Source of the DNA: Pseudomonas taiwanensis
GTDB taxonomy: Bacteria > Pseudomonadota > Gammaproteobacteria > Pseudomonadales > Pseudomonadaceae
DNA length: 43,047 bases
Direction: 5' to 3'
Assembly (NCBI RefSeq): GCF_013393345.1
Contig: NZ_QJRF01000032.1
Location: 1-43,047, forward strand
Under the pieces are notes generated by a model. The model was not told the origin of the DNA. It saw only the letters and a program-made list of their open reading frames with translations, and searched no databases. Shown piece after piece: positions 8,715-32,850 of this stretch (position 1 is its first letter; the number at the start of each line of letters is the position of its first letter). The translations under genes and the position numbers were made by a program.

Positions 8715-8729
8715 TGCCCTAGCCTCGCC

Positions 8730-9373: not shown

Positions 9374-9383
9374 AGAAGAGCGA

Positions 9384-10361: not shown

Positions 10362-10541
10362 CAGGCTGTCCCCTGTTATCCATGCGCCGAATCTTCTGCC
10401 GGCGCTTTGAGGGGAGCATATCCCTGGGGAATTCGGCGCTATCGCGCAAAAGCGACCGGGGTATTGCCGAAAGCGTCAAGCCGGTCGCTAATGGGCAAGC
10501 GGGGTTCGGAACTGCCGTTTTTACGGGGGTGAGCCCTGCTC
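10362..10541 (-). promoter_or_regulatory. Promoter region of the dipeptidase-dgc operon with a 9-bp inverted repeat
   Basis: AGCGACCGG (10451-10459) and CCGGTCGCT (10481-10489) are perfect inverted 9-mers with 21 bases between them, about 90-130 bases upstream of the operon start. The GGTCGC core recurs upstream of gbcA (34368-34383, palindromic) and of fdsG (10742-10747). GbdR is the expected activator of this operon, so the element is a candidate GbdR site; that assignment is inference. Confidence 0.45.
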
Positions 10542-10641
10542 TTGTGGGGGCGAATTCATTCGCTATGCAGGCCGCAGGCCTGCCTTCAGGACGGAAATGG
10601 GGCGGCGGTGCCGCCCGTCGCGAATGAATTCGCCCCCACAG
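10542..10641. repeat. REP pair, family A, between dgc and fds operons
   Basis: TTGTGGGGGCGAATTCATTCGC and its inverted copy GCGAATGAATTCGCCCCCAC bracket about 50 GC-rich bases (with GGCCGCAGGCC). The pair lies between two divergent operons. Bases 10642-10937 hold no convincing gene; they contain small inverted repeats CGGGGA/TCCCCG (about 10773-10792) and ACCACG/CGTGGT (10845-10850, 10859-10864) in the fds leader. Confidence 0.85.
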
Positions 10642-10937
10642 CAAAGCCGCAGGTCTGCGCTTCTCCAGGCATCGTTCCTGAGCGCCTATAAAGGAAGGTA
10701 CAGAGCGCTCCGTCGGCCTGCGTCGGTTTCAGAATGTGCAGGGTCGCTGGGGTGAAATTTCCGAATGACGGGGATGGCAAGCTCCCCGAATGTCCCGACG
10801 AGCGCGCGTAGATGTGCTTCGGGGCGCTAGGACGGCCACCACAGACCACGCTCCGTGACGTGGTGAGTGAGCCGCAGCCGAGACCTCCGGACGATGAACG
10901 GCACTGCCCTGTCGTCCGCGAAGCAGAGGAACGCTGT

Positions 10938-11420
10938 ATGCCCGATGAGACGCTTCACCTGCCTCTGATCCATAGCGTGCTGGAGCGCGAGAAGGACACC
11001 CCCGGTGCCTTGCTGCCGATCCTTCACGCAATCCAGGAAGGCGCGGGTTACATCCCAGACGTCGCCATTCCCGAAATCGCTTACGCCCTGAACCTCAGCC
11101 TGGCTGAGGTGCGTGGGGTGATCAGCTTCTACCACGATTTCCGTACCACACCGCCGGCGCGCCATACCCTGCGCCTGTGCCGTGCCGAGTCCTGCCAGAG
11201 CATGGGCGCCGAGCGCCTCGCCGCGCAGTTGCGCGAGCAACTGGAGCTGGATGACCACGGCACCAGTGCCGACGGCCAGATCAGCCTGCGGCCGGTCTAC
11301 TGCCTGGGCGCCTGCGCCTGTTCGCCCGCCCTGGAGCTGGACGGCCGCCTGCACGCGCGCCTCACCCCCGAGCGCCTGCGTTCCCTGGTGAACGGTTGCC
11401 TGGAGGACGGCTCATGCTGA
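10938..11420 (+). CDS. fdsG: FdsG, gamma subunit of NAD-dependent formate dehydrogenase
   Basis: The 160-aa NuoE-like [2Fe-2S] protein has ligands in the pattern LCRAESCQ (C-x4-C) and YCLGACAC (C-x3-C), as in the 24-kDa subunit of complex I. The N-terminal helical region (LLPILHAIQEGAGYIP) is typical. In the FdsGBAD complex it relays electrons between FdsB and FdsA. ATG at 10938 is chosen because AGAGGA stands 7 nt upstream and the family homology begins there; the reading frame extends further upstream without homology. The stop codon lies inside the start region of fdsB (7-base overlap). Confidence 0.92.
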   Translation: MPDETLHLPLIHSVLEREKDTPGALLPILHAIQEGAGYIPDVAIPEIAYALNLSLAEVRGVISFYHDFRTTPPARHTLRLCRAESCQSMGAERLAAQLREQLELDDHGTSADGQISLRPVYCLGACACSPALELDGRLHARLTPERLRSLVNGCLEDGSC

Positions 11421-12973: not shown

Positions 12974-15846
12974 TCAACATCTTCGATCCCTCCAGCGATG
13001 TCGATCTCGGCACCCCGGCCCGCGAAAGCGACGTGCAGGTCAGCCTGAGCATCGATGGCCGCGAGATCAGCGTGCCCGCCGGCACGTCGGTGATGCGCGC
13101 CGCCGCGCTGCTCGGCACCACCATTCCCAAGCTGTGCGCTACCGATAGCCTGGAAGCCTTCGGCTCCTGCCGTATGTGCCTGGTGGAAATCGACGGCATG
13201 CGCGGTTATCCGGCCTCCTGCACCACGCCGGTGAGCGAAGGCATGGTGGTCCACACCCAGACGCCCAAGCTTGCCACCCTGCGCCGCAATGTGATGGAGC
13301 TGTACATCTCCGATCACCCGCTGGATTGCCTGACCTGCTCGGCCAACGGCAACTGCGAGTTGCAGACCGTCGCCGGCCAGGTGGGCCTGCGCGAGGTGCG
13401 CTACGGCTACGACGGCGCCAACCACCTGGATGAGCAGAAGGACGTCTCCAACCCCTATTTCGACTACGACCCGAGCAAGTGCATCGTCTGCAACCGCTGC
13501 GTGCGCGCCTGCGAGGAGACCCAGGGCACCTTCGCCCTGACCATCAGCGGGCGTGGCTTCGAGTCCCGCGTGGCGGCGGCCGGTGGCGAGAACTTCCTCG
13601 ACTCCGAGTGTGTGTCCTGCGGCGCCTGCGTGCAGGCCTGCCCGACCGCCACCCTGATGGAAAAGAGCGTGGTGGAGATGGGCCAGCCCGAGCGCAGCGT
13701 CATCACCACCTGCGCTTATTGCGGCGTGGGCTGCTCGTTCAAAGCCGAAATGAAGGGCGACCAACTGGTGCGCATGGTTCCGGACAAGAACGGCCAGGCG
13801 AACCACGGTCACTCCTGTGTGAAAGGCCGCTTCGCCTGGGGTTATGCGACCCACCCGGACCGCATCACCAAACCGATGATCCGCAAGCACATCGAAGACC
13901 CCTGGCAGGAAGTCAGCTGGGAAGAAGCGGTGAACTACGCGGCCAGCGAATTCCGTCGCATCCAGCTCAAGTACGGGCGCGACTCCATCGGTGGCATCAC
14001 TTCCAGCCGCTGCACCAACGAAGAGACCTACCTGGTGCAGAAGCTGGTGCGCGCTGGCTTCGGCAATAACAACGTCGACACCTGCGCCCGTGTCTGCCAC
14101 TCGCCCACCGGCTACGGCCTCAAACAGACCCTCGGGGAGTCCGCTGGCACCCAGAGCTTCGACTCGGTGATGCAGGCTGACGTGGTGCTGGTGATCGGCG
14201 CCAACCCCACCGACGCCCACCCGGTGTTCGGCTCCCAGCTCAAGCGCCGCCTGCGCGAGGGCGCGCGGTTGATCGTCATCGATCCGCGCCGCATCGACCT
14301 GGTGGATTCGCCCCACGCCCGCGCCGACCTGCACCTGGCGCTGCGACCGGGGACCAACGTGGCCATGCTCAACGCCCTGGCCCATGTGATCGTCACCGAA
14401 GGCCTGGTCAAACAGGACTTCGTGGATGCTCGCTGCGAAGCGACTGATTTTGCCCGCTGGCGCGATTTCGTCAGCCTGCCGGAAAACTCCCCCGAGGCCA
14501 TGGGGCCGATCTGCGGTGTGTCGCCTGACGACATCCGTGCCGCTGCGCGGCTCTACGCCACCGGCGGAAACGCGGCCATCTACTACGGCCTGGGCGTGAC
14601 CGAACACAGCCAGGGCAGCACCTCGGTGATGGGCATCGCCAACCTCGCCATGGCTACCGGAAACATTGGCCGAGAAGGCGTCGGCGTGAACCCGCTGCGT
14701 GGGCAGAACAACGTGCAAGGCTCCTGCGACATGGGTTCGTTCCCCCATGAACTGCCCGGCTATCGCCACGTTTCCAACGACACCGTGCGTGCCCAGTTCG
14801 AGCAGGCGTGGGGCGTGACTCTGCTACCTGATCCAGGCCTGCGCATCCCCAACATGTTCGAGGCGGCGCTCGGCGGCACCTTCAAGGCGCTCTACTGCCA
14901 GGGCGAGGACATCGCCCAGAGCGACCCCAATACCCAGCACGTCACCGCGGCCCTGTCGGCCATGGAATGCGTGGTGGTGCAGGACATCTTCCTCAACGAA
15001 ACCGCCAAGTTCGCCCATGTCTTCCTGCCGGGCAGTTCCTTCCTGGAGAAGGACGGCACTTTCACCAACGCCGAGCGGCGCATCTCCCGCGTGCGCAAGG
15101 TGATGGACCCGCTGGGCGGCAAGGCCGACTGGGAGGCGACGCAGCTGCTGGCCAACGCCCTCGGCTACAAGATGGACTACAAACACCCGTCCCAGATCAT
15201 GGACGAGATCGCCAGCCTGACCCCGACCTTCACCCGCGTGAGCTACGCCGAGCTGGATCGTCACGGCAGCCTGCAATGGCCCTGCAACGACGCCGCGCCG
15301 GATGGCACGCCGACCATGCACATCGAGGAATTTGTGCGCGGCAAGGGACGCTTCATGCTCACCGGCTACGTGCCCACCGAAGAGAAGGTCAACAACCGCT
15401 ATCCGCTGCTGTTGACCACCGGCCGCATCCTCAGCCAGTACAACGTCGGCGCCCAGACCCGACGCACCGACAACGTCGCCTGGCATGAAGAGGACCGCCT
15501 GGAGATCCACCCGACCGATGCCGAGAGCCGGGGCATCAACGAGGGCGATTGGGTGGGCGTGGGCAGCCGCGCCGGACAGACGGTGCTGCGTGCCAAGGTC
15601 AGCGAGCGGGTGGCGCCGGGGGTGGTGTACACCACCTTCCACTTCCCCGAATCGGGGGCCAACGTGATCACCACCGACAACTCCGACTGGGCCACCAACT
15701 GCCCGGAATACAAGGTGACGGCGGTGGAGGTCACGCGGGTCTACCACCCCTCCGAATGGCAAAAACGCTATCAAGAATTCAGTGACGAACAGCGGCGCCT
15801 GCTCAAGGACCGCCGCAGGACCGAAAAAGTCGAGGTACGCCGATGA
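12970..15846 (+). CDS. fdsA: FdsA, molybdenum catalytic subunit of formate dehydrogenase
   Basis: The protein has 958 residues. In order: an N-terminal [2Fe-2S] domain (CRMC and flanking Cys); a NuoG-type His-Cys3 cluster (HPLDCLTC...NGNC); two ferredoxin clusters (CIVCNRCVRACE, CVSCGACVQACP); the CAYCGVGC cluster; then the bis-MGD molybdopterin domain. Cys376 in the segment VCHSPTGYGLKQT is the expected molybdenum ligand. The C-terminal domain (TGRILSQYNVGAQTRR ... TTFHFPESGANVIT) is typical of formate dehydrogenases. It oxidises formate to CO2. There is no Tat signal, so it is cytoplasmic. It overlaps fdsB and fdsD by ATGA. Confidence 0.96.
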   Translation: MINIFDPSSDVDLGTPARESDVQVSLSIDGREISVPAGTSVMRAAALLGTTIPKLCATDSLEAFGSCRMCLVEIDGMRGYPASCTTPVSEGMVVHTQTPKLATLRRNVMELYISDHPLDCLTCSANGNCELQTVAGQVGLREVRYGYDGANHLDEQKDVSNPYFDYDPSKCIVCNRCVRACEETQGTFALTISGRGFESRVAAAGGENFLDSECVSCGACVQACPTATLMEKSVVEMGQPERSVITTCAYCGVGCSFKAEMKGDQLVRMVPDKNGQANHGHSCVKGRFAWGYATHPDRITKPMIRKHIEDPWQEVSWEEAVNYAASEFRRIQLKYGRDSIGGITSSRCTNEETYLVQKLVRAGFGNNNVDTCARVCHSPTGYGLKQTLGESAGTQSFDSVMQADVVLVIGANPTDAHPVFGSQLKRRLREGARLIVIDPRRIDLVDSPHARADLHLALRPGTNVAMLNALAHVIVTEGLVKQDFVDARCEATDFARWRDFVSLPENSPEAMGPICGVSPDDIRAAARLYATGGNAAIYYGLGVTEHSQGSTSVMGIANLAMATGNIGREGVGVNPLRGQNNVQGSCDMGSFPHELPGYRHVSNDTVRAQFEQAWGVTLLPDPGLRIPNMFEAALGGTFKALYCQGEDIAQSDPNTQHVTAALSAMECVVVQDIFLNETAKFAHVFLPGSSFLEKDGTFTNAERRISRVRKVMDPLGGKADWEATQLLANALGYKMDYKHPSQIMDEIASLTPTFTRVSYAELDRHGSLQWPCNDAAPDGTPTMHIEEFVRGKGRFMLTGYVPTEEKVNNRYPLLLTTGRILSQYNVGAQTRRTDNVAWHEEDRLEIHPTDAESRGINEGDWVGVGSRAGQTVLRAKVSERVAPGVVYTTFHFPESGANVITTDNSDWATNCPEYKVTAVEVTRVYHPSEWQKRYQEFSDEQRRLLKDRRRTEKVEVRR

Positions 15847-21022: not shown

Positions 21023-21655
21023 TCAGGGGGTGGGCACCACATAGCGGCGAGCGAAGTCGATCAGGTCGACCTGGTTGCGGGTCTTCAGCTTGTCCATCAA
21101 ACGGGATTTGTAAGTACTGACCGTCTTGTGGCTGATGAACAGCTGCTTGGCGATTTCCTGATTGTTCTTGCCATTGGCCAGATTCTGCAGGACCGCCAGT
21201 TCGCGGTCGGACAGCGTGTCCAGCAGATGGCTGTCGCTGCACTCGCCCCGCTGCGAGGTATCCGGCAGGTGCACCGTGCTGGGAAACAGGCTGTACCCGG
21301 ACAGTACCGAGCGCACAGCCGAGACCAGACTGACCGCCTGCTCCTGCTTGGACATGTAGCCGGTAGCGCCCGCCTGCAGGCAGCGGTTGGCGTACAGCGA
21401 GGCTGGCAGCGAGGTCAGCACCAGCAGTTTGAGGTTGGCGTCCATGCTGCTGAGTCGGCCCAGGACTTCCAGGCCGTCGAGCTTGGGGATGGCGATATCC
21501 AGTATCACCAGGTCGGGTCGCAGCGAACGCGCCATGCTCAGGCCTTCCACGCCGCTCTCGGTCTCACCGATCACCTCATAGTCCTCTCGCTCCAGCAGTA
21601 CGCGAGTTGCAAATCGGATCATGGACTGATTGTCGATCAGCAGTACCTTGTTCAT
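21023..21655 (-). CDS. RocA/BvgA-type response regulator (REC + LuxR HTH), acidic pocket D-N
   Basis: The protein has 210 residues from ATG 21655, which has GGAG about 9 nt upstream; an ATG 15 bases earlier lacks a clear ribosome site. The receiver domain has phospho-acceptor Asp53 (LVILDIAIP), Thr/Ser at LVLTS and Lys in GYMSK. The C-terminal LuxR/FixJ HTH reads LSDRELAVLQNLANGKNNQEIAKQLFISHKTVSTYK. The usual acidic pair is D8-N9 instead of D-D, which may change magnesium binding. It is a clear paralogue of the regulator at 27085 (same length, Asp53 in both). It is divergent from the hybrid kinase, so it is a probable output partner or modulator of that kinase. Confidence 0.85.
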   Translation of the reverse strand: MNKVLLIDNQSMIRFATRVLLEREDYEVIGETESGVEGLSMARSLRPDLVILDIAIPKLDGLEVLGRLSSMDANLKLLVLTSLPASLYANRCLQAGATGYMSKQEQAVSLVSAVRSVLSGYSLFPSTVHLPDTSQRGECSDSHLLDTLSDRELAVLQNLANGKNNQEIAKQLFISHKTVSTYKSRLMDKLKTRNQVDLIDFARRYVVPTP

Positions 21656-22068
21656 CTGTTGGTTCTCCATGTCAGGTTTCCAATGAGTACGGAGCGCTCA
21701 CAGGCCTTCGGGAATTGCCGTTGAGAATGGGGCTATCGAAGATGTGGATGGCCACGCCGGCCCATTGAGATGGGGATTCGTTTCGACCGGCGTGAGAATG
21801 CCAAGTTGGCTTTAACGGAAATCCTATTCAGAATCTCGGCAACTTATCCTTCAGACCGATCTGATAACTTCGTACTAACTTTCACCTGTTTCTAAGACTT
21901 GCCCGTACTGTTTCCGGGTGTCCGTCCCAATTGGCAGGTGAATGTTCAGGGGCGGAAGTATATTGGCGGTTTTTCTGTTGATTGGACGTTTAGGAAGTTT
22001 CCTACAGAGTCTGTAGGCAGACTTCTTGGCGTGTAGGTCGCCCCGAAAAAAGTGCCCTGTTTCAACTA
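21656..22068. promoter_or_regulatory. Divergent control region of the hybrid kinase with overlapping palindromes
   Basis: No gene is visible in these 413 relatively AT-rich bases. At 21991-22017 two perfect palindromes overlap: TAGGAA-GT-TTCCTA (21991-22004) and CCTACAG-AGT-CTGTAGG (22001-22017). TGTAGG recurs at 22032-22037. A diverged copy ATCCTATTCAGAATC lies near 21821-21835. The TTCCTACAGA core (21999-22008) is shared with the pilin and regulator promoters of this locus. Confidence 0.65.
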
Positions 22069-25000
22069 ATGTTCTGTTCATTCAATTCTGCGAGGCGGAC
22101 CGGCCAGGTGATCCGTAATTTCCTTTCCAGAGCAGTCCTGCCCTTCTTCTGGCTTCTCATGGTGGGGACTGCCTACGCTGGCGAGGATGCTCGCCCACTG
22201 ACCCTTTCCAGCCAACTGGTGGTCGATCAGCAGGAGCTGTTGATCAGCGAGGAAGACTGGCACTGGCTACGGCAGAAGCGCGAGCTGGTGCTGGGCGTCA
22301 CGGGTGGAGAGTTCGCGCCCCTGGAAATCATCGGGCGTGATGGCGGCTACGAAGGTATCGCGGCCGACGCCGTGGCACTGGTCCAGCAATTGCTCGGCAT
22401 GCAGATCAAGCTGCGTCGGTACCCCGACCGGCCGGCCCTGCTGCAGGCCCTGGTCGCCGGCGAGATCGACCTGCTGATTGGCGATGGCCAGGACGGCGCC
22501 GGCCAGAGCGTCGTTCGCAGTCTGCCCATTGCGACTGATCGGCTGGCGCTGTTCCGCCGCTATGACGACCAGCGCAACTTCCCGCAGGACCTCGCTGGCG
22601 TCACCGTCGCTCTGGTGCCGGGGCATGACCAGGCGCTCGGCCAGCGCTATCCCGGCGTGCGGCAGGTGGTTGCCCGGTCGGTGGAGGATGGCTTGGCGGC
22701 GGTTGCGTTCGGGGAGGCCGATCTGCTGCTGGGCGACTTGCTGCCGGTCTATTACCAGCTCAATAGCAACTTCTATGGCATGGCCAGGTTCGATCGCTTC
22801 GTCGACCAGCCGGATGTCGGCGTCGCGTTCATCGTGCGGGAGCAGGACCAGCGTCTGTTGCGTGGCCTTGACGCGTCCCTGAGAGCGGTGGGCCGCGCGC
22901 GCCTTGACGAGATATCCCGGCGCTGGACGGGCGTTGGTGTAATTCCCGTACGCGACCTGCAGCCGCTCACACCCGAGGAAGCGCGCTGGGCTCAATCCCA
23001 TCCGGTTGTGCGCCTGGTGATCGATGACGACAAGGCACCGCTGGCGTACTTCGACGACAGTGGACAGCTACGTGGTGGTGTGGCGGACCTGCTGGAAATG
23101 GTCTCGGTGCGCACGGGATTGCGTTTCGAAGCAGTCAGTCGTACCGGTGGCCCCGCCCGCCAGCTCGAGGATCTGGAAGAGGGTGACGCGGACCTGGCCA
23201 TCCTGACGCCGAGCAAGGAACGGGAAAGCCAGCTGCGCTTCACCCGTCCGATTTCTACCAGCCCCTTCGTGCTGGTGGCGCATATGGACAAAGAGGGCGA
23301 AGTCGCGCCGATTGGGGAGAGGGGCCAGCGCCTCGCCCTGAGCCGCGGTAACGTGGCCCGGGAGCAAATCCGACAGATCTATCCCGAGATGCAGTTTATC
23401 GATGCCGCCTCCTCTCTGGATGCCATGAATAGGGTGCGTTCCGGCGAGGCGGACTTCGCCTTGGTGGCGATGCCGGTGGCGCAGTACTACACCGTGCCCC
23501 TGTTCGAAAACAGACTGAAGATCGCGGCACTGCCGCCCATCGACCCGGCGCATGCCAACTTCGCCGTGCGCCGCGGCGATACCGAGTTGTATTCGATCAT
23601 CGAGAAGGCCCTGGCCAGCATTTCGCCGGACGAACTGAACGCAGCAACGAATCGTTGGCGCGGTAGCCGGGCCATGAGCCCACAGATCTGGCGCGACTAC
23701 AGCGCCCTGATTCAGCGCATCCTCATCGGTGCCTCCCTGCTGCTGCTGCTCGTGCTCGCCTGGGTCCTGCGCCTGCGTCGCGAAGTGCGGCGGCGGCAGA
23801 CGGCCGAGCGCCAGCTCAGCGACGAGCTGCGCTTCATCGAAACCCTGACCGACAGCATGCCGCCGCCGCTTTATGTGCGGGATACCGAAGGGCGACTGCT
23901 GTCGTGCAACCGCAGCTATTCGACGAGCCTGGGGCTGGCAGCGGATCAGGTGCGCGGCCTCACTCCGATGGAGCTGCCTGGAGACGTTTTCGAGGCTGCG
24001 CCGGAGTTCCATCGGCTCTACCTCCAGGCGATGGCGGAAGGGCGGATGATCAAGGGCATCCACCACGTTCGTCTCGGCGGCAAGAGCCTGTGGATCGATC
24101 ACTGGATCCAACCTTTCCAGGACTCCGCCGGCAAGGTCAAAGGGGTAATCTGCGGCTGGCTCGACATCACCGAGCACCGTCATCTGGTGCAGGAGCTGGA
24201 ATCGGCGAAGAACCTGGCGGACGAGGCCAGCCGGGCCAAGACCACCTTCCTCGCGACCATGAGCCACGAAATCCGCACGCCGATGAACGCGGTGATCGGC
24301 ATCCTCGAACTGGCGCTGAAGCGTGCTGCCGACCAGCCCATCGACCGCTCCAGCATTGAAGTGGCCTACGGCTCGGCCCGCAGCCTGCTGGCGCTGCTCG
24401 GTGACATCCTCGACATCGCCCGTATCGAATCGGGTCGGCTCAGCCTGGCACCGCAGCGGGCCAACCTGCGCGAATTGGTGGAATCGGTGGCGCGGGTGTT
24501 CGATGGGCTGGCACGACAGAAGCGCCTGAGTCTGCTGCTGGATATCGACTCCAGCATCCAGGGCGACGTCCTGGTGGACTCCCTGCGTTTCAAGCAGATC
24601 CTTTCCAACCTGGTCAGCAACGCGATCAAGTTCACCCGTGAGGGCAGTGTTCGCGTGCACATCCGCGGTGAGGCGCTGGAGGGTGAAATGCTGCGCGTCC
24701 ACCTCGGAGTCGAGGACACGGGCATCGGTATCTCGCTGGAGGAGCAAGGCCGGCTGTTCCGCCCCTTCGCCCAGGTGGAGCGAGGCAACCAGCAGACCGA
24801 AGGCGCGGGCCTGGGACTGGTGATCAGCCGCTCTCTCTGCGAAATGATGGGTGGCCGGCTGAACCTGACCAGTACGCCTGGCCAGGGCACGCGAATCGAC
24901 CTGGAGCTGCGCCTGCACCGCCTCGAACCGGTCGAGGAGCCGGCGTTGCCCTCGCCCGATCGCGTACAGCAGCGCCGCAGGTTGCGGGTGCTGGTGGTGG

Positions 25001-25731
25001 ATGATCATCCGGTGAACCGGCAAATCCTCGCCCAGCAACTGGCCTACCTCGGACACGAAGTGGTCGCGGTGGAGAATGGCGTGGAGGCCCTTGCCGCCTG
25101 GCGGGCCTATCCGTTCGATGTGATCGCCACCGATTGCCACATGCCGCTCATGAATGGCGCCAGCCTCGCTCAAGCGATCCGCGCCGAAGAACGCCAGGGG
25201 CCGCGTGCGCCGGTCCTGATTCTCGGCCTGACGGCCGATGCCCAGCCGGATGAAATCGAGCGGGGCCTGCAAGCTGGCATGGACGACTGCCTGATCAAGC
25301 CCATAGGTCTCGACCTGTTGGAAGAGAAGCTTTGGGGAGCGTCGGGAGGCGAAGCGGCTCCAGCGGAAGAAGCCAAAGGTGAAGCGCTGTTCGACCTGTC
25401 TCCCCTGGCGCCGCTTACTGGCGGTGATGCGGTTCTGATTCGCAATCTGGTGAACGAGTTGCTGGAGGCCAATCGGCGGGATCTGGAGCCCTTGGCCGAC
25501 CTGGCCGGAAGGAGTGATGCGCCTGCCCTGGCTGAACTCGCCCACCGCCTCAAGGGCGCCGCACGTGTGATCCGCGCGGAACCGCTGATCGACGCCTGCA
25601 ATGATCTCGAACAGGCATGCAAGCTACCGGCGCCGCAACCCTCGGACCTGCGCGCAGGTGCAGAGGGGCTGCGGCGGGCGATGCTGGAACTGGAGAGCGC
25701 GTTGCTGGCGGAGCTGGCCCAGAATCAGTGA
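22069..25731 (+). CDS. rocS1: RocS1/BvgS-type hybrid sensor histidine kinase with two periplasmic binding domains
   Basis: The protein has up to 1220 residues. In order: signal/membrane segment (to about residue 38); two periplasmic SBP_bac_3 (VFT) domains (about 55-285 and 305-540); a membrane helix near 553-572; PAS (about 590-710); HisKA with His733 in SHEIRTPMNAVIG; ATPase with NLVSNAIKFT, DTGIGI and GAGLGL boxes; receiver with Asp1022; HPt with His1159 (AHRLKGAARVI). This full phosphorelay is the BvgS/RocS1 type. ATG 22069 lacks a clear ribosome site; GTG 22108 has GAGGCGG before it and would give a neater signal peptide. The ligand is unknown. It is convergent with, and overlaps by 7 bases, the rocR gene. 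The symbol rests on gene order and domain make-up. Confidence 0.85.
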   Translation: MFCSFNSARRTGQVIRNFLSRAVLPFFWLLMVGTAYAGEDARPLTLSSQLVVDQQELLISEEDWHWLRQKRELVLGVTGGEFAPLEIIGRDGGYEGIAADAVALVQQLLGMQIKLRRYPDRPALLQALVAGEIDLLIGDGQDGAGQSVVRSLPIATDRLALFRRYDDQRNFPQDLAGVTVALVPGHDQALGQRYPGVRQVVARSVEDGLAAVAFGEADLLLGDLLPVYYQLNSNFYGMARFDRFVDQPDVGVAFIVREQDQRLLRGLDASLRAVGRARLDEISRRWTGVGVIPVRDLQPLTPEEARWAQSHPVVRLVIDDDKAPLAYFDDSGQLRGGVADLLEMVSVRTGLRFEAVSRTGGPARQLEDLEEGDADLAILTPSKERESQLRFTRPISTSPFVLVAHMDKEGEVAPIGERGQRLALSRGNVAREQIRQIYPEMQFIDAASSLDAMNRVRSGEADFALVAMPVAQYYTVPLFENRLKIAALPPIDPAHANFAVRRGDTELYSIIEKALASISPDELNAATNRWRGSRAMSPQIWRDYSALIQRILIGASLLLLLVLAWVLRLRREVRRRQTAERQLSDELRFIETLTDSMPPPLYVRDTEGRLLSCNRSYSTSLGLAADQVRGLTPMELPGDVFEAAPEFHRLYLQAMAEGRMIKGIHHVRLGGKSLWIDHWIQPFQDSAGKVKGVICGWLDITEHRHLVQELESAKNLADEASRAKTTFLATMSHEIRTPMNAVIGILELALKRAADQPIDRSSIEVAYGSARSLLALLGDILDIARIESGRLSLAPQRANLRELVESVARVFDGLARQKRLSLLLDIDSSIQGDVLVDSLRFKQILSNLVSNAIKFTREGSVRVHIRGEALEGEMLRVHLGVEDTGIGISLEEQGRLFRPFAQVERGNQQTEGAGLGLVISRSLCEMMGGRLNLTSTPGQGTRIDLELRLHRLEPVEEPALPSPDRVQQRRRLRVLVVDDHPVNRQILAQQLAYLGHEVVAVENGVEALAAWRAYPFDVIATDCHMPLMNGASLAQAIRAEERQGPRAPVLILGLTADAQPDEIERGLQAGMDDCLIKPIGLDLLEEKLWGASGGEAAPAEEAKGEALFDLSPLAPLTGGDAVLIRNLVNELLEANRRDLEPLADLAGRSDAPALAELAHRLKGAARVIRAEPLIDACNDLEQACKLPAPQPSDLRAGAEGLRRAMLELESALLAELAQNQ

Positions 25732-26921
25732 CGTCCGGGGTGCAAACGATCATCCAGCAGCGCCCGGAAGCTGCTGCGATCCAGCGGCCGTGCGAAGAGG
25801 AAACCCTGTGCCACCTTGCAGCCGAGCGAAAGCAGACGCTCACATTGCTCGGTGGTTTCCACGCCTTCCACCACCAGCGTCAGGTCCATGGCCTCGGCCA
25901 TGGCGACGGCGCCGCGGATGACCGCCCCGCTGCGCGGCTGGTTATCCAGCTTGCGGACGAATGCCGCGTCCAGCTTGACCTCGCTGAAGGGCAGTTCACA
26001 CAAGCGATCCAGCGACGAATAGCCGGCGCCGAAGTCATCCATGGCCAGTCCACAGCCCATCAGGCGCAGGCGGACCAGGCTTTCCAGGCTGGCGGCTGGC
26101 GCTTCCAGCAGGCCGGTTTCGGTGAGTTCGAACGTCAATCCGGAGCCTGGCAGCCCAGCCAGTTCCAAGGCCTGGCCAACGCGCTCGGCGATATCGAGAT
26201 TGCCCAGCTGTCGTGGGTGGAGATTGAAGGCGAGGTTCACCTGCCGCCCGCTGAGGCCGAGTTCCTGCTGCAGTTCCAGGCCTTGCCCGAGGAGATGCCA
26301 GAACAGGCGATCGACCAGGCCGTGACGCTCGATGGCTGGCAGGAAGTGGCCGGGCGATAACACGCCTCGTCGTGGATGGCGCCAGCGGGCGAGGACTTCA
26401 GCGCCCTGGAGCTCACCGCTCCGCATGCACACCTTCGGCTGGAGAAACGGTTCGAACTCACCCTGTTCCAGGCCTCTGAGGATTTCCTCCAGGGTGGGCG
26501 GCGCGTTCGCCGCCGCGAGGGCTTCGGGCCGCGTGGGAAGGGCTGAATGGCGCTTGATCAGGTCGGCAGCACGCTGCATGTCGAAGGGCTTACCGAGGTC
26601 GCCGAGGAAATCCAGGCCAAGGCAGCGGATCATGGCAGAGGTCGCCTGGCGCAGCTCAGGCCCTACCTCGCTGCTGAGAATCACCGAACGGATGACGCCA
26701 GCCTGGCTGGCACAACGGAGAAAGGCCGCGCCATCCATGCCGGACATGCGCAGGTCGCAGAGGGCGATGTCGACTCCGCCGCAGGCTTCGAGCAAGGATA
26801 AGGCGCTGGCGCCGTCCGCCGCTTCGTGGATCTTCTCGAGCCCCAATTGCCGAAGGGCGGTTACCGCGATCAGGCGCTGGAATGGTTCGTCTTCCAGCAC
26901 CAGAATGCTCAAGTTCTTCAT
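25725..26921 (-). CDS. rocR: RocR-type response regulator with c-di-GMP phosphodiesterase (EAL) domain
   Basis: The protein has 398 residues from ATG 26921. A receiver domain (Asp56, Lys111) is followed by an EAL domain. With this start, the catalytic residues fall at the numbers I recall for P. aeruginosa RocR: E175 (EVLARW), N233, E265, E268, D295-D296 (DDFGAGYSS), K316 and E352 (VEGVET). The enzyme is therefore expected to be active, hydrolysing c-di-GMP to pGpG. A GTG at 26969 would add 16 residues without homology. RocR proteins oppose RocA-type activators of fimbrial genes, here encoded next door. It is convergent with the kinase gene. Confidence 0.9.
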   Translation of the reverse strand: MKNLSILVLEDEPFQRLIAVTALRQLGLEKIHEAADGASALSLLEACGGVDIALCDLRMSGMDGAAFLRCASQAGVIRSVILSSEVGPELRQATSAMIRCLGLDFLGDLGKPFDMQRAADLIKRHSALPTRPEALAAANAPPTLEEILRGLEQGEFEPFLQPKVCMRSGELQGAEVLARWRHPRRGVLSPGHFLPAIERHGLVDRLFWHLLGQGLELQQELGLSGRQVNLAFNLHPRQLGNLDIAERVGQALELAGLPGSGLTFELTETGLLEAPAASLESLVRLRLMGCGLAMDDFGAGYSSLDRLCELPFSEVKLDAAFVRKLDNQPRSGAVIRGAVAMAEAMDLTLVVEGVETTEQCERLLSLGCKVAQGFLFARPLDRSSFRALLDDRLHPGRH

Positions 26922-27001
26922 GGCGGGCTCGACAGCGGTTGGGATAACGGCCAAGTTACCTACGGACACGCGTCCCCAGCTAGGCGATGCGTCCTAGGTG
27001 G

Positions 27002-27015
27002 TTGTAGGAAAATTC
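27002..27015. promoter_or_regulatory. TTCCTACA-type box between rocR and the RocA-like gene
   Basis: TTGTAGGAAAATTC (reverse complement GAATTTTCCTACAA) lies 75 bases before the regulator start at 27085 and 80 before the rocR start at 26921. CCTAGG stands just beside it at 26993-26998. It matches the box shared with the kinase and fimbrial promoters. Confidence 0.5.
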
Positions 27016-27084
27016 ATCGGTTGTCGGCTTTGGCCAAGTTCGGGTGCAGCGTCATGGATGCTTGGCCCCTTTTTCGAGGTTGCA

Positions 27085-27720
27085 ATGAGAAGTGCCCTGA
27101 TCGTCGACGATCATCCAGTGATCCGTATGGCTGTCCGCATGTTGCTGGAGCGCAACGGGATGGAGGTCATCGGCGAGGCTGATAACGGCGTCGATGCCTT
27201 GCAGATGATCCGTCAACATGAGCCGGATATCGTCATCCTGGACATTGGCATCCCGCGCCTTGATGGCCTCAATGTCATCTCGCGAATCCAGGCGCTGGGG
27301 CTCGACAGTCATGTCCTGGTGCTGACTTCGCAGTCGGCAGAGGGCTTTTCCCAGCGCTGTCTCCAGGCGGGAGCAAAGGGCTTCGTCAGCAAGGAAGAGG
27401 ACCTGCAGAACCTGCTCACGGCCATCAATGCCATCAACGCCGGATTCACCGTGTTTCCGTCCATTTCGATGAGCGGCAGCCAGGCACCGGCGCTGAGCGA
27501 AAGCGAGCTGGTGGAGAGGCTGTCCAACCAGGAGCTGATGGTCTTGCAGTACCTGGCGACCGGGCTGTCGAACAAGGAAATCGGCGAGCGCATGCTGCTC
27601 AGCAACAAGACCATCAGCACCTACAAGACCCGTATCCAGCAGAAGCTCAACCTCGGGTCCTTGCTGGAGCTGATCGAGTTCGCCCGGCGCAACGACCTCG
27701 CCGAACGACCCGAGGGCTGA
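27085..27720 (+). CDS. rocA1: RocA1/BvgA-type response regulator (REC + LuxR HTH)
   Basis: The protein has 211 residues. The receiver has the acidic pair D8-D9, phospho-acceptor Asp53 (IVILDIGIP), Thr at LVLTS and Lys in GFVSK. The HTH reads LSNQELMVLQYLATGLSNKEIGERMLLSNKTISTYKTR. ATG 27085 has GAGG 5 nt upstream; upstream in-frame codons have no homology. It belongs to the FimZ/BvgA/RocA subfamily that activates fimbrial operons, and the adjacent gene is a fimbrial usher (convergent, 11 bases apart). It is likely phosphorylated through the HPt of the neighbouring kinase. The symbol is inferred from kinase-rocR-rocA gene content. Confidence 0.82.
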   Translation: MRSALIVDDHPVIRMAVRMLLERNGMEVIGEADNGVDALQMIRQHEPDIVILDIGIPRLDGLNVISRIQALGLDSHVLVLTSQSAEGFSQRCLQAGAKGFVSKEEDLQNLLTAINAINAGFTVFPSISMSGSQAPALSESELVERLSNQELMVLQYLATGLSNKEIGERMLLSNKTISTYKTRIQQKLNLGSLLELIEFARRNDLAERPEG

Positions 27721-27731
27721 CCTTTCTTCCC

Positions 27732-30305
27732 TCAGTTCTGGCAGCTGAGGCGATAGCGCTGGTAGTTGCTGGATTTGTCTTGTGGCGGTAGCGCGTAGGC
27801 GGCGGCGCATTGTTGCCCACTCCACTTGATGGTCAGCGTGGCCTGGTCCTCTTCGACCAGGGCCAGTGCCCTGCCGCTCGGATCGGAGATGGCGAGCTGC
27901 TTGCCCTTGGCATCTTCCAGCGAAGCGCCGAATGGGATGGGTTGGCCCAGGCTGTCGAACAGCTCGAACTGGACGCGTTGCCCCTTTTTTCCTTCGTAAC
28001 GGGCCAGCACTATGGCCCCGCGGCGCGGCACGACCTGCTGGGTAGCGTTGTCGATCTCGACGCCGCCGCCGAGGTTGCGTGTGTCCAGGGTGATCCAGTT
28101 GGTCCGGTAGGGCTGAGCGTTCGGCACTATGGCATAGCCGTTGTATCCGGTATTGACCCCGTTGAAGTTGCTGACGCTGACATCCGAGATGTCGGGGACT
28201 TCCACCAGTGCGAAGGTTTCACCCACCGGTTGGCCCAGGTTGATGCCGCCAGCGTGGGCGACGACGGAGCCCGACAAGGTGAGGTTCTCCGACGTGTAGC
28301 TGCGTCCCTTGCTGTAGCCAAGGTTGATCTCCGCAAGCGAGGTGCGGCTGTTCAGGTTGACCGAAGTCGAGCTACCCCTGCTGCTGTTCTGGCTGCCTTG
28401 CACCGAGTAGGAGGTGTCGCTGTCTTCGGACAGGTAGCCGTTCACGCCGACCTGCGTGTTGTCGTTGCTGTCCTGATGGGTGGTCGAGAGGTAGGCGCGT
28501 GGCGCCCGTGGCTTCGAGCCCAGAGGGAAGGACACGGAAAGGTTTAGCTGGGTGTCGTCGTTCGACGGGCCGGCAGTACCGATGTTGCGAGTTTGGCTCA
28601 CGCTGAAGCTGTAGCTGACGTCGCGCCAACCATTGGAGTAGCCGGCGGAGAGGCTGCGCGTGCCGCCGCGATTCCAGTAACGCTCGTCGCTGGCGTTGAT
28701 GTAGAGGCTGCCGTACTTGCGCTGGCCAAGGGTCTGGTTGACGGTCAGGTCGGTACGGATCTTCGAGCGACCACTCGTGCTCGGCATGCCCAGGGTGAGT
28801 TCTTGAACATGATCGGAGAGCGTCCGATAGCCTTCGGTGGAGTAGCGATAGGCCGCCAGGGTGAAGCTGGTGTCAGTGCCGGTGAAGGTCTTCGCGTACA
28901 GCGCACGCAGGCTGTTGCCTCGGGCGGAGAGCCCACGAACCCGGCTGGCCGAGTGCGTTACGTCGACCGACACAGCACCGATCGGGGTATTTCGCCCGGC
29001 ACCGAGCGATACGGCATTGAAGTCCTGGGTGGCCTGGGTGCCAGCAATGCCCGTGAGGTTGCTGCTGAGGCCGTAGGCTGCAGTCGCGCTGACGAATGCC
29101 GGGTTTTTGAGGTCGTCACTGTTGCTATTGAACTCGCCGGCAGAAAGGCTGTAGTTCAGTTGGCCTTCGCGGACCATGGTCGGCAGGCTCGAAAAGGCCT
29201 GCTGGCTCACGCGCCGGCGCCCGTCGGCCTCGATGATGGTGATCTCCAGGTCGCCGTTGGAACCGGTGGGGAAGATGTCGCTGATCTCGAACGGGCCCGG
29301 CGCCACGGTTGTGGAGTAGAGGATGTAATCGTTCTGACGAATCTCCACGGTCGCGTTGGTCTCCGCAACGCCACGGATGACCGGTGCATAGCCGCGCTCG
29401 CTGTCCGCCCGCATGGCTTCATCGGAGGCCAGCTTGATGCCGCGGTAGCGCACACTGTCGAACAGGTGGGCGTCGGAGTAGATCTCCCCCAGGCTGAACT
29501 GCCCCTTGAGCCTTGTGATGTCGCGCTGCAAGTAAGTGCGGTTGCTGGTGAAGGAACTTGGCCGACCAGTGCCCGTCCGGTAGTTGGATTCGTTCCGCAG
29601 ACGCCATGCCCCCAGGTTGATGCCGTTGCGCAGGCCCAGGTTGTTGTATGTCTGACGGCCGTAGTCGTCCCGGTTCCGGTTGGTGTTGAGCTGGTAATTG
29701 ACGAAGGCGGCGGCGACACCGTTGTCCCACAGGGCCGGGTCTACGTAGCCGCGCCGGCCCTGGAGCATGGCGATCTGCGGAATGCTGGCGCTCAGGCGCA
29801 GGCGAGTGGAGTCGTAGCGCAGTGTGGCCTGGTCGATCAGTGTCGACAGGTCGTAACAGGTGTCGGCCCCGTCGGGATTGACCACGCCCTGTTCCACCAG
29901 CTTTGCCAGGTCGATGCCCAGCAGGTGAAGCAGCTCGATATTAAGGCAGGGTTCGACTATTCCCGTCTGCTGATTGCGCAAAAAGTCGATGTCCCTACGC
30001 CCGACCAGTACCTCGTTGCTGTAAAGGTCCACCCGATAATTGCCAGGCACGACGCTGTTCGCGTGCAGCAGGGACTGCAGGTCGACGGCTGAGGGCGCAC
30101 CCTTGAGGAAGGTCGTGTTGAACGAATCGACCTGGGCGTCTGCCACCGGTAGCGGTTCGGGGGATTTGGCATGCAGCGTCATCGAAGGGAGAGCCAGGGA
30201 AATGGCTAGCGCGAGTTTGCTGCGGCGAACCAGGGGGCGCGATCTCAGGTTGCCCGCGGGCAACCGAGTGGAACGTCCCTCGATATGACTGGGCCAATTG
30301 CTCAT
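27732..30305 (-). CDS. Fimbrial outer-membrane usher (PapC/FimD family)
   Basis: The protein has 857 residues, the normal usher length. A signal peptide with a long basic lead (to MTLHA, about 46) is followed by the N-terminal chaperone-binding domain (FNTTFLKG ... VVPGNYRVDLYSNEVLVGRRDIDF), the 24-strand barrel with plug, and C-terminal domains (QPIPFGASLEDAKGK ... the last Cys near the end pairing with an upstream Cys). It exports and orders pilin subunits. An in-frame stop lies directly upstream of the ATG, fixing the start region. The 118-base gap after the chaperone gene holds a long stem (30329-30339 with 30383-30393). It is convergent with the RocA1-like gene. Confidence 0.93.
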   Translation of the reverse strand: MSNWPSHIEGRSTRLPAGNLRSRPLVRRSKLALAISLALPSMTLHAKSPEPLPVADAQVDSFNTTFLKGAPSAVDLQSLLHANSVVPGNYRVDLYSNEVLVGRRDIDFLRNQQTGIVEPCLNIELLHLLGIDLAKLVEQGVVNPDGADTCYDLSTLIDQATLRYDSTRLRLSASIPQIAMLQGRRGYVDPALWDNGVAAAFVNYQLNTNRNRDDYGRQTYNNLGLRNGINLGAWRLRNESNYRTGTGRPSSFTSNRTYLQRDITRLKGQFSLGEIYSDAHLFDSVRYRGIKLASDEAMRADSERGYAPVIRGVAETNATVEIRQNDYILYSTTVAPGPFEISDIFPTGSNGDLEITIIEADGRRRVSQQAFSSLPTMVREGQLNYSLSAGEFNSNSDDLKNPAFVSATAAYGLSSNLTGIAGTQATQDFNAVSLGAGRNTPIGAVSVDVTHSASRVRGLSARGNSLRALYAKTFTGTDTSFTLAAYRYSTEGYRTLSDHVQELTLGMPSTSGRSKIRTDLTVNQTLGQRKYGSLYINASDERYWNRGGTRSLSAGYSNGWRDVSYSFSVSQTRNIGTAGPSNDDTQLNLSVSFPLGSKPRAPRAYLSTTHQDSNDNTQVGVNGYLSEDSDTSYSVQGSQNSSRGSSTSVNLNSRTSLAEINLGYSKGRSYTSENLTLSGSVVAHAGGINLGQPVGETFALVEVPDISDVSVSNFNGVNTGYNGYAIVPNAQPYRTNWITLDTRNLGGGVEIDNATQQVVPRRGAIVLARYEGKKGQRVQFELFDSLGQPIPFGASLEDAKGKQLAISDPSGRALALVEEDQATLTIKWSGQQCAAAYALPPQDKSSNYQRYRLSCQN

Positions 30306-30423
30306 TACTCAATGCCTGCGAGCTGCCCGGTTCACCTCCCCTCAGGACGAGCGGTGCCAGGCGGGAGCGTTCAGCACCCGCCGGAGGTGAGCCAGAGGTT
30401 TGGGGATAGAGCTCGTTACAAGC

Positions 30424-31155
30424 TCACTCGGACCGCTTTGCCGTGGCTCCAGCGGGACTCCCGATGGAAAGGCTTGCGGAGTAGGGCACCAGGGCTCCGT
30501 AGTCGTTGATGCTGAAGAAGGTCAGATCAACGGCTTTCGCAGACGGCAGATCCGGGACGCTGAATACCCGTTCTTCGCCGGGGGCGATCATGGTGGAGTC
30601 GACGGCCACCGTGGTGCCCAACTTCACATCGCTCATGGAGACGTGGTATTTACCCGGGTTTCGGAGCTTCAGCTCCGTCTTGCCGCCAAGGCGCGCGAGC
30701 TGCCATTGCAGTTCTTCTGGTGCACGGTGGGCCTCGGTCTTCAGCCCCTCCGGACGGAAGAACATCTTGATTCGCTGGCGTACGGCCAACTGCAAGATGT
30801 TCCGGCCTTCGCTGGTCTGGGGAATTTCCTGGACGTTGAGCCATACCACCGACTCCCGGTCGGTAGGCATGCCGCTGCCTTCGTAGAGAATGCGCAACAG
30901 CTGTCGTTCGTTCGCAGGTACGCGCGCCAGAGGAGGCGTCACGGCAAAAGGTGGCGGCGTGTCCAAATCCTTGTCGCTGTCGATCCATGACTGAACAAGA
31001 ACGTCCTTTCCAGTGTTGCGAACGGTGATGCTGGCCTCTTTGTTGGGGCTGTTGAAGACAAGACGGGTGGAGCTGAGAGAGATTCCCGCGCATGCGTGGG
31101 AAGCCAGCACCAGGCTCAAGGCGCCCAGGCAGGTGGAGATCGTGCGACGGAGCAT
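30424..31155 (-). CDS. Periplasmic fimbrial chaperone (PapD family)
   Basis: The protein has 243 residues. A signal peptide (to about SHACA) precedes two Ig-like domains. The conserved Arg in STRLVFN and Lys in RQRIKMFFRP anchor the subunit C-terminus; the alternating hydrophobic G1 strand is NILQLAVRQRIKMFF. The F1-G1 loop looks short, so it is an FGS-type chaperone. It donates strands to the pilins encoded just upstream. It is separated from the pilin gene by a strong hairpin. Confidence 0.93.
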   Translation of the reverse strand: MLRRTISTCLGALSLVLASHACAGISLSSTRLVFNSPNKEASITVRNTGKDVLVQSWIDSDKDLDTPPPFAVTPPLARVPANERQLLRILYEGSGMPTDRESVVWLNVQEIPQTSEGRNILQLAVRQRIKMFFRPEGLKTEAHRAPEELQWQLARLGGKTELKLRNPGKYHVSMSDVKLGTTVAVDSTMIAPGEERVFSVPDLPSAKAVDLTFFSINDYGALVPYSASLSIGSPAGATAKRSE

Positions 31156-31183
31156 AGGATTACCATCAGGTACCAGGGAAGTA

Positions 31184-31203
31184 GCGGGGCCGGATGGCCC
31201 CGC
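31184..31203 (-). promoter_or_regulatory. Hairpin between pilin and chaperone genes
   Basis: A perfect 8-bp stem GCGGGGCC / GGCCCCGC with a GGAT/ATCC loop, 25 bases after the pilin stop and 28 before the chaperone start, with no U run. Such structures are known to set high pilin versus low chaperone/usher expression by partial termination or message protection. Confidence 0.6.
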
Positions 31204-31228
31204 CAGGCTTCATGGATGCCGTTCCTGC

Positions 31229-31795
31229 TTATTCGTACTGCAGGGTGAACGGCAGGGTGGCGTTAGCGTCACCGGGAGTGGCGGTCTTCGGGTCGGCAGT
31301 GGTGACGTAGGCTGCGGCGAAGGTCAGGGTGGCGTCGGTACCGTTCAGTGCGCTCTCGATCTTGGCGGTGTTTTTTGTGCGCAGGTCAATGATTTCACCA
31401 TTGCTGTCCATGATGGCGATGCCGACGTTCGTGGCAGATTCGGTGCTTCGGTTCAGGGCCAGGATTGGCTTGCTGTCGACCAACCCGGAACCAGCTGCGG
31501 CGTCGAACACCATGGCGACCTTGGTGCCTTCGTTGCAGTTGACCTTCAGGTTGAAGTTGCTTGCGCCGATTCGGCCGCTGGTCGGGGCGGTATCGGTACC
31601 GATGTCCTTGATGGCAAGGTTGCCCATATCGACGATGATGGCCTTTTCCTTACCGACGGAGCCGTCTACCGTGCAGGCGTCGTTGTTGATGAAGCCGGTG
31701 AAGTTGATCTGGCCACCACCTGCGTCGATGGCAAAGGCGGAACCGCTAGCTGCGATGACGGACATCGCGAGGAAGGCCAGGGAGATCTTTTTCAT
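31229..31795 (-). CDS. Major type 1-like fimbrial subunit (pilin)
   Basis: The protein has 188 residues, with a signal peptide MKKISLAFLAMSVIAASGSAFA. The mature N-terminus has the donor-strand pattern GGGQINFTGFINNDAC; a disulfide pair is expected between the Cys of NDACTV and of KVNCNEG. The C-terminus LPFTLQYE has the penultimate Tyr required for chaperone recognition. It would be the structural shaft subunit. It has its own upstream box at 31880-31910 and probably its own promoter, as a 461-base gap separates it from the short pilin-like gene. Confidence 0.92.
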   Translation of the reverse strand: MKKISLAFLAMSVIAASGSAFAIDAGGGQINFTGFINNDACTVDGSVGKEKAIIVDMGNLAIKDIGTDTAPTSGRIGASNFNLKVNCNEGTKVAMVFDAAAGSGLVDSKPILALNRSTESATNVGIAIMDSNGEIIDLRTKNTAKIESALNGTDATLTFAAAYVTTADPKTATPGDANATLPFTLQYE

Positions 31796-32256
31796 GTGTT
31801 ACTCCAGACAAATTGATCACGAAAAGTGGTGCATCGAAATGCCCGGCCAAGATAATCCCTGGTGAAATTCGGGAATATCAGATGGGGTTTTTGATTCTGT
31901 AAGGAATTACCGATATTGGGGGTAGCCGCTTTCTTGCCGGCGTTTTCAGCGACGATCGTGGTCGTTTCAATGCAGGCTGAAAGCCCCTATGAACGGATGA
32001 TTCAGCTTGATTGCACCTGTGCCGAAGCTTTCGGAGAGCGGGTCCAGGTCGAGGCGACGGCTTTCCGCTTGTGCGTGAGGGGAGAAGGAAGCAGGCCCTT
32101 GCTTGGCCGGGGCGATTCGGAGCGGGTTCCGCGCGGAGGCATTCGGCTGATACCAACACTTCGTGATTGAAAGCTGTCTGCTTCCGACGGCAGCTGCAGC
32201 TTGCCGTTGCCCCCACCGGAGATAGCAGGCAAGGCCCCGTGGGGGGCTTGGCCCTT
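31796..32256 (-). promoter_or_regulatory. Pilin promoter region carrying the shared box
   Basis: No convincing gene lies in these 461 bases. On the minus strand AATTCCTTACAGAATC is followed by AAAAACCCCATCTG (31880-31910), about 85-115 bases before the pilin ATG. The same block, slightly expanded, precedes the short pilin-like gene at 32634-32668. The stretch is AT-richer than its surroundings near 31800-31920, typical of regulated fimbrial promoters. A weak hairpin (CAAGGCCCC / GGGGCTTG, about 32231-32247) follows the short pilin-like gene. Confidence 0.6.
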
Positions 32257-32577
32257 TCAGTTGAAGGTGACGATCACCACCTTGCCGCGAATCGTGGAAC
32301 GGGAGCTGCTGGCGACTGCATAAGTGCTGATGGAGGACGTATCAGCTACGCCTGCACAGATTCCATTTGCAGCGGGAGCCGCCCCGGCGCTGCCCGGGCT
32401 GACGCCATTGATTCGACCCGCATGCCGGTTCCAAGTGGCCGTGGAATATTCACACGGTCCCCTCTCAATGCTCCCTACGAAGTGAATGACGCCATGAGTT
32501 GTCTTGCCGTCGCGTGCATGAGAAACCGCTGAAAATGCAATCAGCAGCATCGCTACTGGGATAAGAATTTTCTTCAT
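32257..32577 (-). CDS. Short pilin-like secreted protein (106 aa)
   Basis: The protein has 106 residues with a signal peptide (MKKILIPVAMLLIAFSAVSHA). The mature part is only about 85 residues but keeps pilin hallmarks: the donor-strand pattern HGVIHFVGSIERGPC, a second Cys in NGICAG, and an alternating hydrophobic C-terminus KVVIVTFN with a penultimate aromatic. A full pilin has about 150 residues, so the middle of the Ig fold is missing or replaced by a Gly/Ser/Ala-rich link. It may be a tip, base or assembly-terminating subunit, or a decayed pilin. It carries its own copy of the shared box. No two-domain adhesin is present in the locus. Confidence 0.75.
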   Translation of the reverse strand: MKKILIPVAMLLIAFSAVSHARDGKTTHGVIHFVGSIERGPCEYSTATWNRHAGRINGVSPGSAGAAPAANGICAGVADTSSISTYAVASSSRSTIRGKVVIVTFN

Positions 32578-32850
32578 GGCTGAGCCCTCTATCTGACTTA
32601 GGGTCAGTAAAGATCAGACGGCTCTGACCTACTAGATCTTGGGGTTTCCGATTTTTCTGTAGGAATTCAGGGTCCGTCTGAAGTCTCTTCGCAATCGCCG
32701 GAGAATTCCTATGAGGAATGTGTGCTTATCCGCACTTCCTCAGGAATGGGAAATTTCACACAGCCAATTTCCCGCTGGAACTGAGGATCATTGAGGGTTT
32801 TGCCGGACCGACGGTGCTTCAGAAAGGACGTTGGTGAGGAATGGCGGGCA
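32578..32850 (-). promoter_or_regulatory. Upstream control region of the fimbrial locus with AGGAA palindromes
   Basis: There is no gene here. On the minus strand GAATTCCTACAGAAAAATCG then GAAACCCCAAGATC (32634-32668) repeats the pilin-promoter block. Further out are two perfect palindromes with the same core: ATTCCT-ATG-AGGAAT (32705-32719) and TTCCT-C-AGGAA (32736-32746). They suggest several adjacent binding sites for a dimeric regulator. Confidence 0.6.

Follow-up and report, generated by a model that had tools for sequence, protein, structure and literature searches.

Conserved palindromes at the roc locus of Pseudomonas taiwanensis as candidate operators of RocA-type regulators

Introduction

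Through which DNA sites could a Roc-type two-component system control the fimbrial genes that lie beside it? The question is raised by a stretch of 43,047 nucleotides from Pseudomonas taiwanensis (NZ_QJRF01000032.1, our C25, one contig of a 6.69-Mb genome), hereafter the window, which contains genes for a RocS1-like hybrid histidine kinase, a RocR-like protein, a RocA1-like response regulator, a second RocA-type regulator and a chaperone-usher fimbria. The names RocS1, RocR and RocA1 were adopted from the first-pass annotation of this DNA; RRup is our label for the second regulator gene, for which we found no named counterpart. That annotation had noticed a short box before four promoters of the module and proposed it as an operator of RocA-type regulators that control their own genes. 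Our analysis leaves this as the best reading: we consider the boxes to be candidate operators of regulators of the EvgA/BvgA/RocA type (NarL family) in an autoregulated Roc-Cup regulon, with a probability of roughly 0.86. We hold this view because the sites are conserved among relatives, recur before fimbrial operons and are present at cupC, cupB, rocA1 and rocA3 of a P. paraeruginosa-like genome.

Results

An orthologue of RocA1 with 80-96% identity was found in 16 of 17 other genomes of the genus, and six named genomes from the group of Pseudomonas resinovorans and P. alcaligenes have orthologues with 80-92% identity. Our footprinting set comprised 17 loci, the window and the orthologous locus from 16 relatives, whose intergenic regions were aligned. 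Phylogenetic footprinting, which the first-pass annotation had suggested as a check, revealed two sites that are each conserved in all 17 loci. Site 1 (21989-22017, plus strand) consists of the inner palindrome TAGGAAG/TTTCCTA (21991-22004) and a third half-site TGTAGG (22012-22017), and includes the box TTCCTACAGA (21999-22008, plus strand), 60 bases from the start codon of the RocS1-like gene. Site 2 (26990-27018, minus strand) is built from the palindrome GATGAAT/TTTCCTA and the third half-site TAGGACG (26990-26996); its box TTCCTACAA (27002-27010, minus strand) is about 75 bases from the start of rocA1 and 81 bases from that of rocR. Before the kinase gene, TTCCTACA-N5-TGTRGG preceded by (T)RGGA occurs in every locus. 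In the rocR-rocA1 interval TGTAGGA is invariant in all 17 loci with the other palindrome half next to it, and the opposite-strand TTCCTACA is exact in 16 of the 17.

The conservation is sharply confined. The RRup-rocS1 region (398 nt) has 25 invariant columns, of which 17 fall inside the 29-nt site 1 motif, as compared with 8 across the remaining 369 positions; six of the invariant columns form the hexamer TATATT, kept in all 17 loci at a constant 26 nt to the left of (T)RGGA. This hexamer belongs to a putative -10 element of RRup (21957-21964, minus strand), which reads TATATT on the plus strand and TATACT on the minus strand (TATAAT in L139), its direction being our inference. The centre of the site 1 palindrome lies about 36 bp upstream of this element, and if TATACT is indeed the -10, the dyad would be placed near -48 of RRup.

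Sites 1 and 2 are built alike: a heptamer palindrome around TTTCCTA is followed by CA and then by a third half-site. The strong sites take the form of a BvgA-like palindrome, (T)RGGAA-N-TTTCCTACA, with a third half-site behind it. The 10-mer of the first-pass annotation marks a real element, although it covers only a part of a palindrome with two to three half-sites. The third half-site starts 16-17 nt from the dyad. At site 1 (TAGG or TGGG) the best-scoring position is +17 in 16 of 17 loci, and the exception, L131, has TAGG at +17 as well, with another register scoring equally; at site 2, where L136 was left out of the scoring, the position is +16 in 11 of 16 loci. A second dyad is possible 23 bp away at site 1 and 22 bp away at site 2.

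A matrix of 20 columns was trained on 31 of the 34 copies of sites 1 and 2, all of them from relatives; the window's own two sites and site 2 of L132 (variant TGTCCTACA) were left out. The two highest scores in the window belong to site 2 (31.2) and site 1 (29.9), and the best of 60 dinucleotide shuffles reached 19.6. Across the 17 loci (323 kb) there are 53 matches scoring at least 12, compared to 1.7 +/- 1.2 in 20 rounds of composition-preserving shuffling. Sites 1 and 2 account for 33 of these matches, 31 being the training set. By our own sorting, 16 of the other 20 are found upstream of a fimbrial gene at a distance of no more than 500 bp (two being one palindrome read on both strands), and the last four are site 1 read backwards, one match 779 bp upstream of a chaperone gene and two elsewhere. 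The exact word GRANNTTCCTACA occurs 94 times in the 17 genomes with RocA1, against 34 for the reversed control, and G001, the single genome without a close RocA1, yields 0 copies against 6.

The four box positions of the first-pass annotation were all recovered, and the distances to start codons, which it had put at about 60-100 bases, are 60, about 75, 81, 100 and 78. With at most one mismatch TTCCTACAGA is found four times in the window against 0.74 expected, a count reached by 1 of 100 shuffles. Two of these matches are boxes of that annotation, a third is the other, mirrored half of box 1, and the fourth, at 39927, is the sole copy outside the module. The first-pass annotation had not noticed the box near the catabolic genes, and positions 4528-15846 contain no TTCCTACAGA at this mismatch level. 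These positions carry genes that resemble dimethylglycine-type catabolism (a DUF3483 iron-sulfur protein, an Oxidored_FMN protein and an M19 dipeptidase) together with a formate-dehydrogenase-like pair.

Some shorter or looser descriptions of the site were rejected. The AAACCCC block is not conserved among relatives and was dropped as a component of the site, and GRANNTTCCTACA with one mismatch gives no signal in the P. taiwanensis genome (89 against 92 for the control). The complete palindrome TTTCCTACA-N5-TGTAGG has one exact copy genome-wide and, at up to two mismatches, 7 copies against 7 for the reversed pattern. Three of the eight genomic copies of the bare 10-mer precede Roc or fimbrial genes: two are the seeds of the first-pass annotation, and the third, at C69:317836, lies 143 bp upstream of a pilin-like open reading frame in a second chaperone-usher operon of the same genome. 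No Roc or fimbrial gene was recognised beside the other five, the translations of the open reading frames being judged by eye.

Site 3, the half-site TTCCTTACAGA (31896-31906, minus strand), stands 100 bp before the pilin start, and TTCCTTACA is exact in 6 of the 9 loci with an orthologous pilin; the variants are TTCTTACA in L132, ATCCTTACA in L133 and CTCCCTACA in L143, a locus without a close RocA1. Site 4, the half-site TTCCTACAGA (32656-32665, minus strand), is found 78 bp before the short pilin-like gene. Of the 17 loci, 8 have an exact TTCCTACA here, 3 (L133, L137 and L138) have none and 6 have an altered one, which in L141 and L142 is accompanied by an exact copy only a few bases upstream. 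The first-pass annotation had missed site 5 (32746-32765, plus strand; matrix score 16.2), a distal palindrome around GAAATTTC; its dyad is about 176 bp upstream of the short pilin-like gene, at a distance of 88 bp from site 4. A score of at least 12 is reached at the corresponding place in 6 of 17 loci. Eleven of the 17 short-pilin promoters carry the word GAAATTTC and six lack it; in 8 of the 11 it sits at -175 or -176 and keeps an exact distance of 88 bp to the box, and in three (L140-L142) it sits at -233 with a different spacing. An exact 22-bp period across this promoter was therefore rejected, only the 88-bp distance being kept in 8 loci while 3 have the dyad elsewhere. L135 has an extra palindrome 49 bp from the distal one.

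The genes of the module were assigned by Pfam. RRup (21023-21670, minus strand) is a REC-GerE response regulator 46% identical to RocA1. It is followed by the RocS1-like kinase (22069-25731, plus strand; SBP_bac_3, PAS, HisKA, HATPase, REC and Hpt), the RocR-like REC-EAL protein (25725-26921, minus strand) and the RocA1-like regulator (27085-27720, plus strand), whose closest solved structures are those of EvgA (PDB 5f64 and 8zwn). The fimbrial genes are all on the minus strand and comprise an usher (27732-30305), a periplasmic pilus chaperone (30424-31155), a fimbrial pilin (31229-31795) and the short pilin-like gene of 106 amino acids (32257-32577), which has no Pfam match. Its product is possibly a pilin or an adhesin with its own transcription unit; tblastn matches with 35-92% identity are present in the loci of 16 of 16 relatives, including those with a replaced usher operon or none. 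An apparent 280-nt leader of RRup occupies 21671-21956, and the RRup-rocS1 intergenic region is 397-423 nt long in the 17 loci and mostly variable in sequence. No RNA element in the window matched Rfam at the gathering score.

The relatives offer natural experiments. In seven of them the fimbrial operon at the locus is replaced by one of a distant type (usher 35-47% identical), and in five of these seven a matrix match of at least 12 is found upstream of the new operon (27.9 at best, in L139, and 12.6 at the weakest); the other two carry the half-site TTCCTACG. In two relatives, G013 and G009, the locus lacks an usher, and in each of them one operon elsewhere is preceded by the box (scores 28.5 and 13.9, respectively); at the second usher of G013 there is no box. 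Altogether we collected 31 ushers, 17 at the roc locus and 14 outside it, of which L323 (634 bp) could not be tested, and the L316 piece ends at 3.2 kb. Both the roc regulator genes and cup-type fimbrial operons have sites upstream, and outside the roc locus a qualifying match lies before the pilin in 4 of 13 testable ushers. We did not count a match behind the pilin in L317 (13.9), nor those in L322 and L324 (22.9), about 3.4 kb from the usher end with unassigned genes between. The latter match, TTATGAAAACTCCTACAACA near position 1800, is a strong one on pieces that carry a divergent usher type.

Sites of the same kind occur farther away. The P. paraeruginosa-like genome G130 has relatives of RocS1, RocR and RocA1 side by side, its RocR being nearly identical to the solved RocR 3sy8. 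Its ushers we take to be those of cupA, cupB and cupC, from their neighbours and the expected gene order. The matrix scores are 25.6 at cupC, 20.6 between rocR3 and rocA3 and 18.1 between rocR and rocA1. The cupA region reaches no more than 10.3, at a place away from the operon, and contains the word TTTCCTA at L162:12839. At cupB a half-site TTTTCCTACG lies about 220 bp upstream of the presumed start of cupB1, for which we took the earliest possible start codon of the gene that precedes the chaperone gene. Relevant passages of a study of P. aeruginosa by DNA affinity purification sequencing (DAP-seq) place the RocA3 signal 214 bp before cupB1 (PMC12051241), and we therefore count this half-site in favour of the operator reading. 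In another genome, G153 (RocA1 58% identical), there is a match of 15.0 between rocR and rocA1 and one of 30.0 just behind rocA1, on the side of a fimbrial operon.

Discussion

Our data are most simply explained by an operator that is common to the regulator genes and the pilus genes. A phosphorylated regulator dimer would bind the palindrome (T)RGGAA-N-TTTCCTACA, and the third half-site and the distal palindrome at 88 bp suggest that further dimers could join along the DNA, much as BvgA dimers do at their promoters. The bound regulator would activate the regulator genes (rocR/rocA1 and the divergent RocA paralogue) as well as the pilus genes, and signalling by the kinase would in this way switch the regulators and the fimbria on together.

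Several observations weigh against this reading. No qualifying upstream match was found at 9 of the 13 testable ushers outside the roc locus, and the roc2-like locus of the P. taiwanensis genome has no box (best score 7.6). The bare 10-mer fails as a genome-wide motif, its 8 copies being outnumbered by the 16 of the reversed pattern. The fimbrial copies are weak: site 3 scores 4.9 and site 4 falls below the 20th-ranked match, which is at 2.1. Because both score poorly with the matrix from sites 1 and 2 of the relatives, sites 3 and 4 share only the half-site with them, and a single matrix for all four boxes had to be rejected, since these two sites do not fit the palindrome model. The proposal of one box common to four promoters stands with regard to the half-site, but the copies before the pilin and the short pilin-like gene are half-sites and not palindromes. 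In G130 the TTTTCCTACG half-site before cupB fails the matrix while a stretch inside the cupB usher gene scores 14.7, and the locus of G174 (RocA1 61% identical) has no clear box, with 7.6 just before rocA1 and 12.8 at best elsewhere. Moreover, by our sorting 59 of the 94 exact copies of GRANNTTCCTACA are outside roc and cup genes (of the remainder, 33 belong to the roc locus and 2 to other cup operons). Some of these places recur: 7 loci have the word beside a DUF2339-like gene, 5 or perhaps 6 before an AcnA-like gene and 4 before a universal-stress-type gene. The genes are named by our reading of the sequences, and the sites may be further targets or chance inheritance. About 110 bp before the AcnA-like gene GGAATTTCCTACA or GGAAATTCCTACA is present in 5 of 6 loci (L234, L240, L245, L260, L272 and L279); at the sixth locus of this type, L245, one neighbour matches and the open reading frame is called differently.

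Which protein would bind the sites? The recognition helix of the NarL family is very similar in RocA1 (NKTISTYKTR), RRup (HKTVSTYKSR), the roc2-type regulator (NKTVSTYKTR) and EvgA (NKTVSTYKSR), and on sequence grounds RocA1, RRup and a third paralogue are all candidate binders. In the relevant passages of PMC12051241, the consensus motifs of RocA1, RocA2 and RocA3 in re-analysed DAP-seq data are highly similar, and their shared targets in vitro include roc1, cupB, cupC and lepBA (PMC12051241). Therefore several regulators may bind.

One could argue that the box is chiefly RRup's own autoregulatory operator and that RocA1 binds weakly or elsewhere. This argument draws on G001, a genome without close RocS1, RocR or RocA1 (best identities 43%, 44% and 55%), which nevertheless keeps RRup (77% identical), the inner palindrome ending in CCTACG (matrix score 21.5) and, with the spacing unchanged at 28 nt, TATACT. 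The outer half-site, which faces RocS1 in other loci, is lost there. The recognition helix of RRup is also nearer to that of EvgA than the helix of RocA1 is. However, the exact word GRANNTTCCTACA is missing from this one genome in spite of its RRup, and its pilin half-site is degraded although the usher is 78% identical. In addition, G130 has the boxes without a close RRup orthologue (51% at best). We thus regard a site that is mainly RRup's own as conceivable and yet somewhat doubtful. Apart from this, the G001 locus (L143, G001:C17:13000-32200) keeps the fimbrial operon and two regulators of the RRup type.

The same genome bears on the direction in which site 1 acts. Since G001 retains RRup, the palindrome and TATACT without the outer half-site, site 1 appears to be first of all a promoter element of RRup, and it probably serves this divergent gene more than, or as well as, the kinase gene. 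The first-pass annotation had assigned box 1 to the kinase promoter; the box does precede the kinase gene, but RRup is the more likely target, as the element is kept in G001 without RocS1. Alternatively, site 1 could repress the kinase, TATATT being the -10 of rocS1 on the plus strand and the palindrome lying just past the start point in a negative feedback. The invariance of the plus-strand TATATT at a fixed distance, with the RocS1 start about 105 nt downstream, would fit such an arrangement, whereas the retention of the element in G001, whose locus has no RocS1, and the positive autoregulation of RocA3 given in the relevant passages of PMC12051241 speak against it, and we consider it unlikely. 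Finally, the boxes could be AT-rich promoter punctuation or the site of an unrelated factor, such as an MvaT-type nucleoid protein, given that the four promoter stretches have 46-58% G+C against 63.7% in the window and that the short word is present at other genes too, but the constant dyad geometry in 17 loci, the concentration of invariant columns in the motif, the excess of matches over shuffles and the resemblance to sites of the RocA/BvgA/EvgA regulator family make this very improbable.

Returning to operators of RocA-type regulators, it could be that the roc locus is a fixed regulatory dock with one operator grammar, into which unrelated pilus cassettes are swapped and controlled via the same half-site, and that the best-conserved promoter mainly expresses RRup rather than the kinase, with RRup as the amplifier of the circuit. 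We offer this wider picture tentatively and would not bet on it. The analysis provides a base-level definition of the operator for the Roc pilus-control circuit from evolution alone, relates it to the architecture of BvgA and EvgA sites, and makes the control of swapped fimbrial operons by a resident two-component network testable. No RocA or EvgA site is given in the relevant passages of PMC3083521, PMC2696094, PMC8041468 and PMC4222967, and our literature search on the EvgA/BvgA consensus and on TTCCTAC with fimbria found no paper defining the site, which does not prove that there is none.

Three known systems can be compared with these sites. EvgA of E. coli K-12 is the closest solved homologue of RocA1, and the emrK-evgA intergenic region contains TTCTTACGCCTGTAGGA, a stretch which we take to be the EvgA site; the spacing of its inverted halves differs from that of our sites, 10 against 12-13 bp from start to start. 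BvgA of Bordetella shares with them the inverted TTTCCTA heptamers: according to the promoter sequence in the relevant part of PMC7250471, the inner palindrome of site 1 agrees with the primary BvgA site of Pfha at 12 of 14 bases and site 2 at 11 of 14 (PMC7250471). BvgA dimers stand 22 bp apart there, which the spacings of 22-23 bp and 88 bp in our loci resemble. Unlike the BvgA sites, the heptamer is extended here by CA, and the promoters and regulons are unrelated.

The nearest likeness is the Roc-Cup system of P. aeruginosa, where the kind of regulation proposed here is already known for RocA1-3 (relevant passages of PMC12051241). Both systems have the RocS1, RocR and RocA1 gene set, and targets of the roc1, cupB and cupC type; the same half-site occurs in the P. 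paraeruginosa-like regions examined, the likeness thus resting on genes, targets and half-site. In contrast to P. aeruginosa, the fimbrial operon here adjoins the roc genes, and a second RocA paralogue is divergent to rocS1, with the best-conserved box at its probable promoter. What our locus adds to the known system is a better resolved operator and the exchange of pilus cassettes under a fixed regulator.

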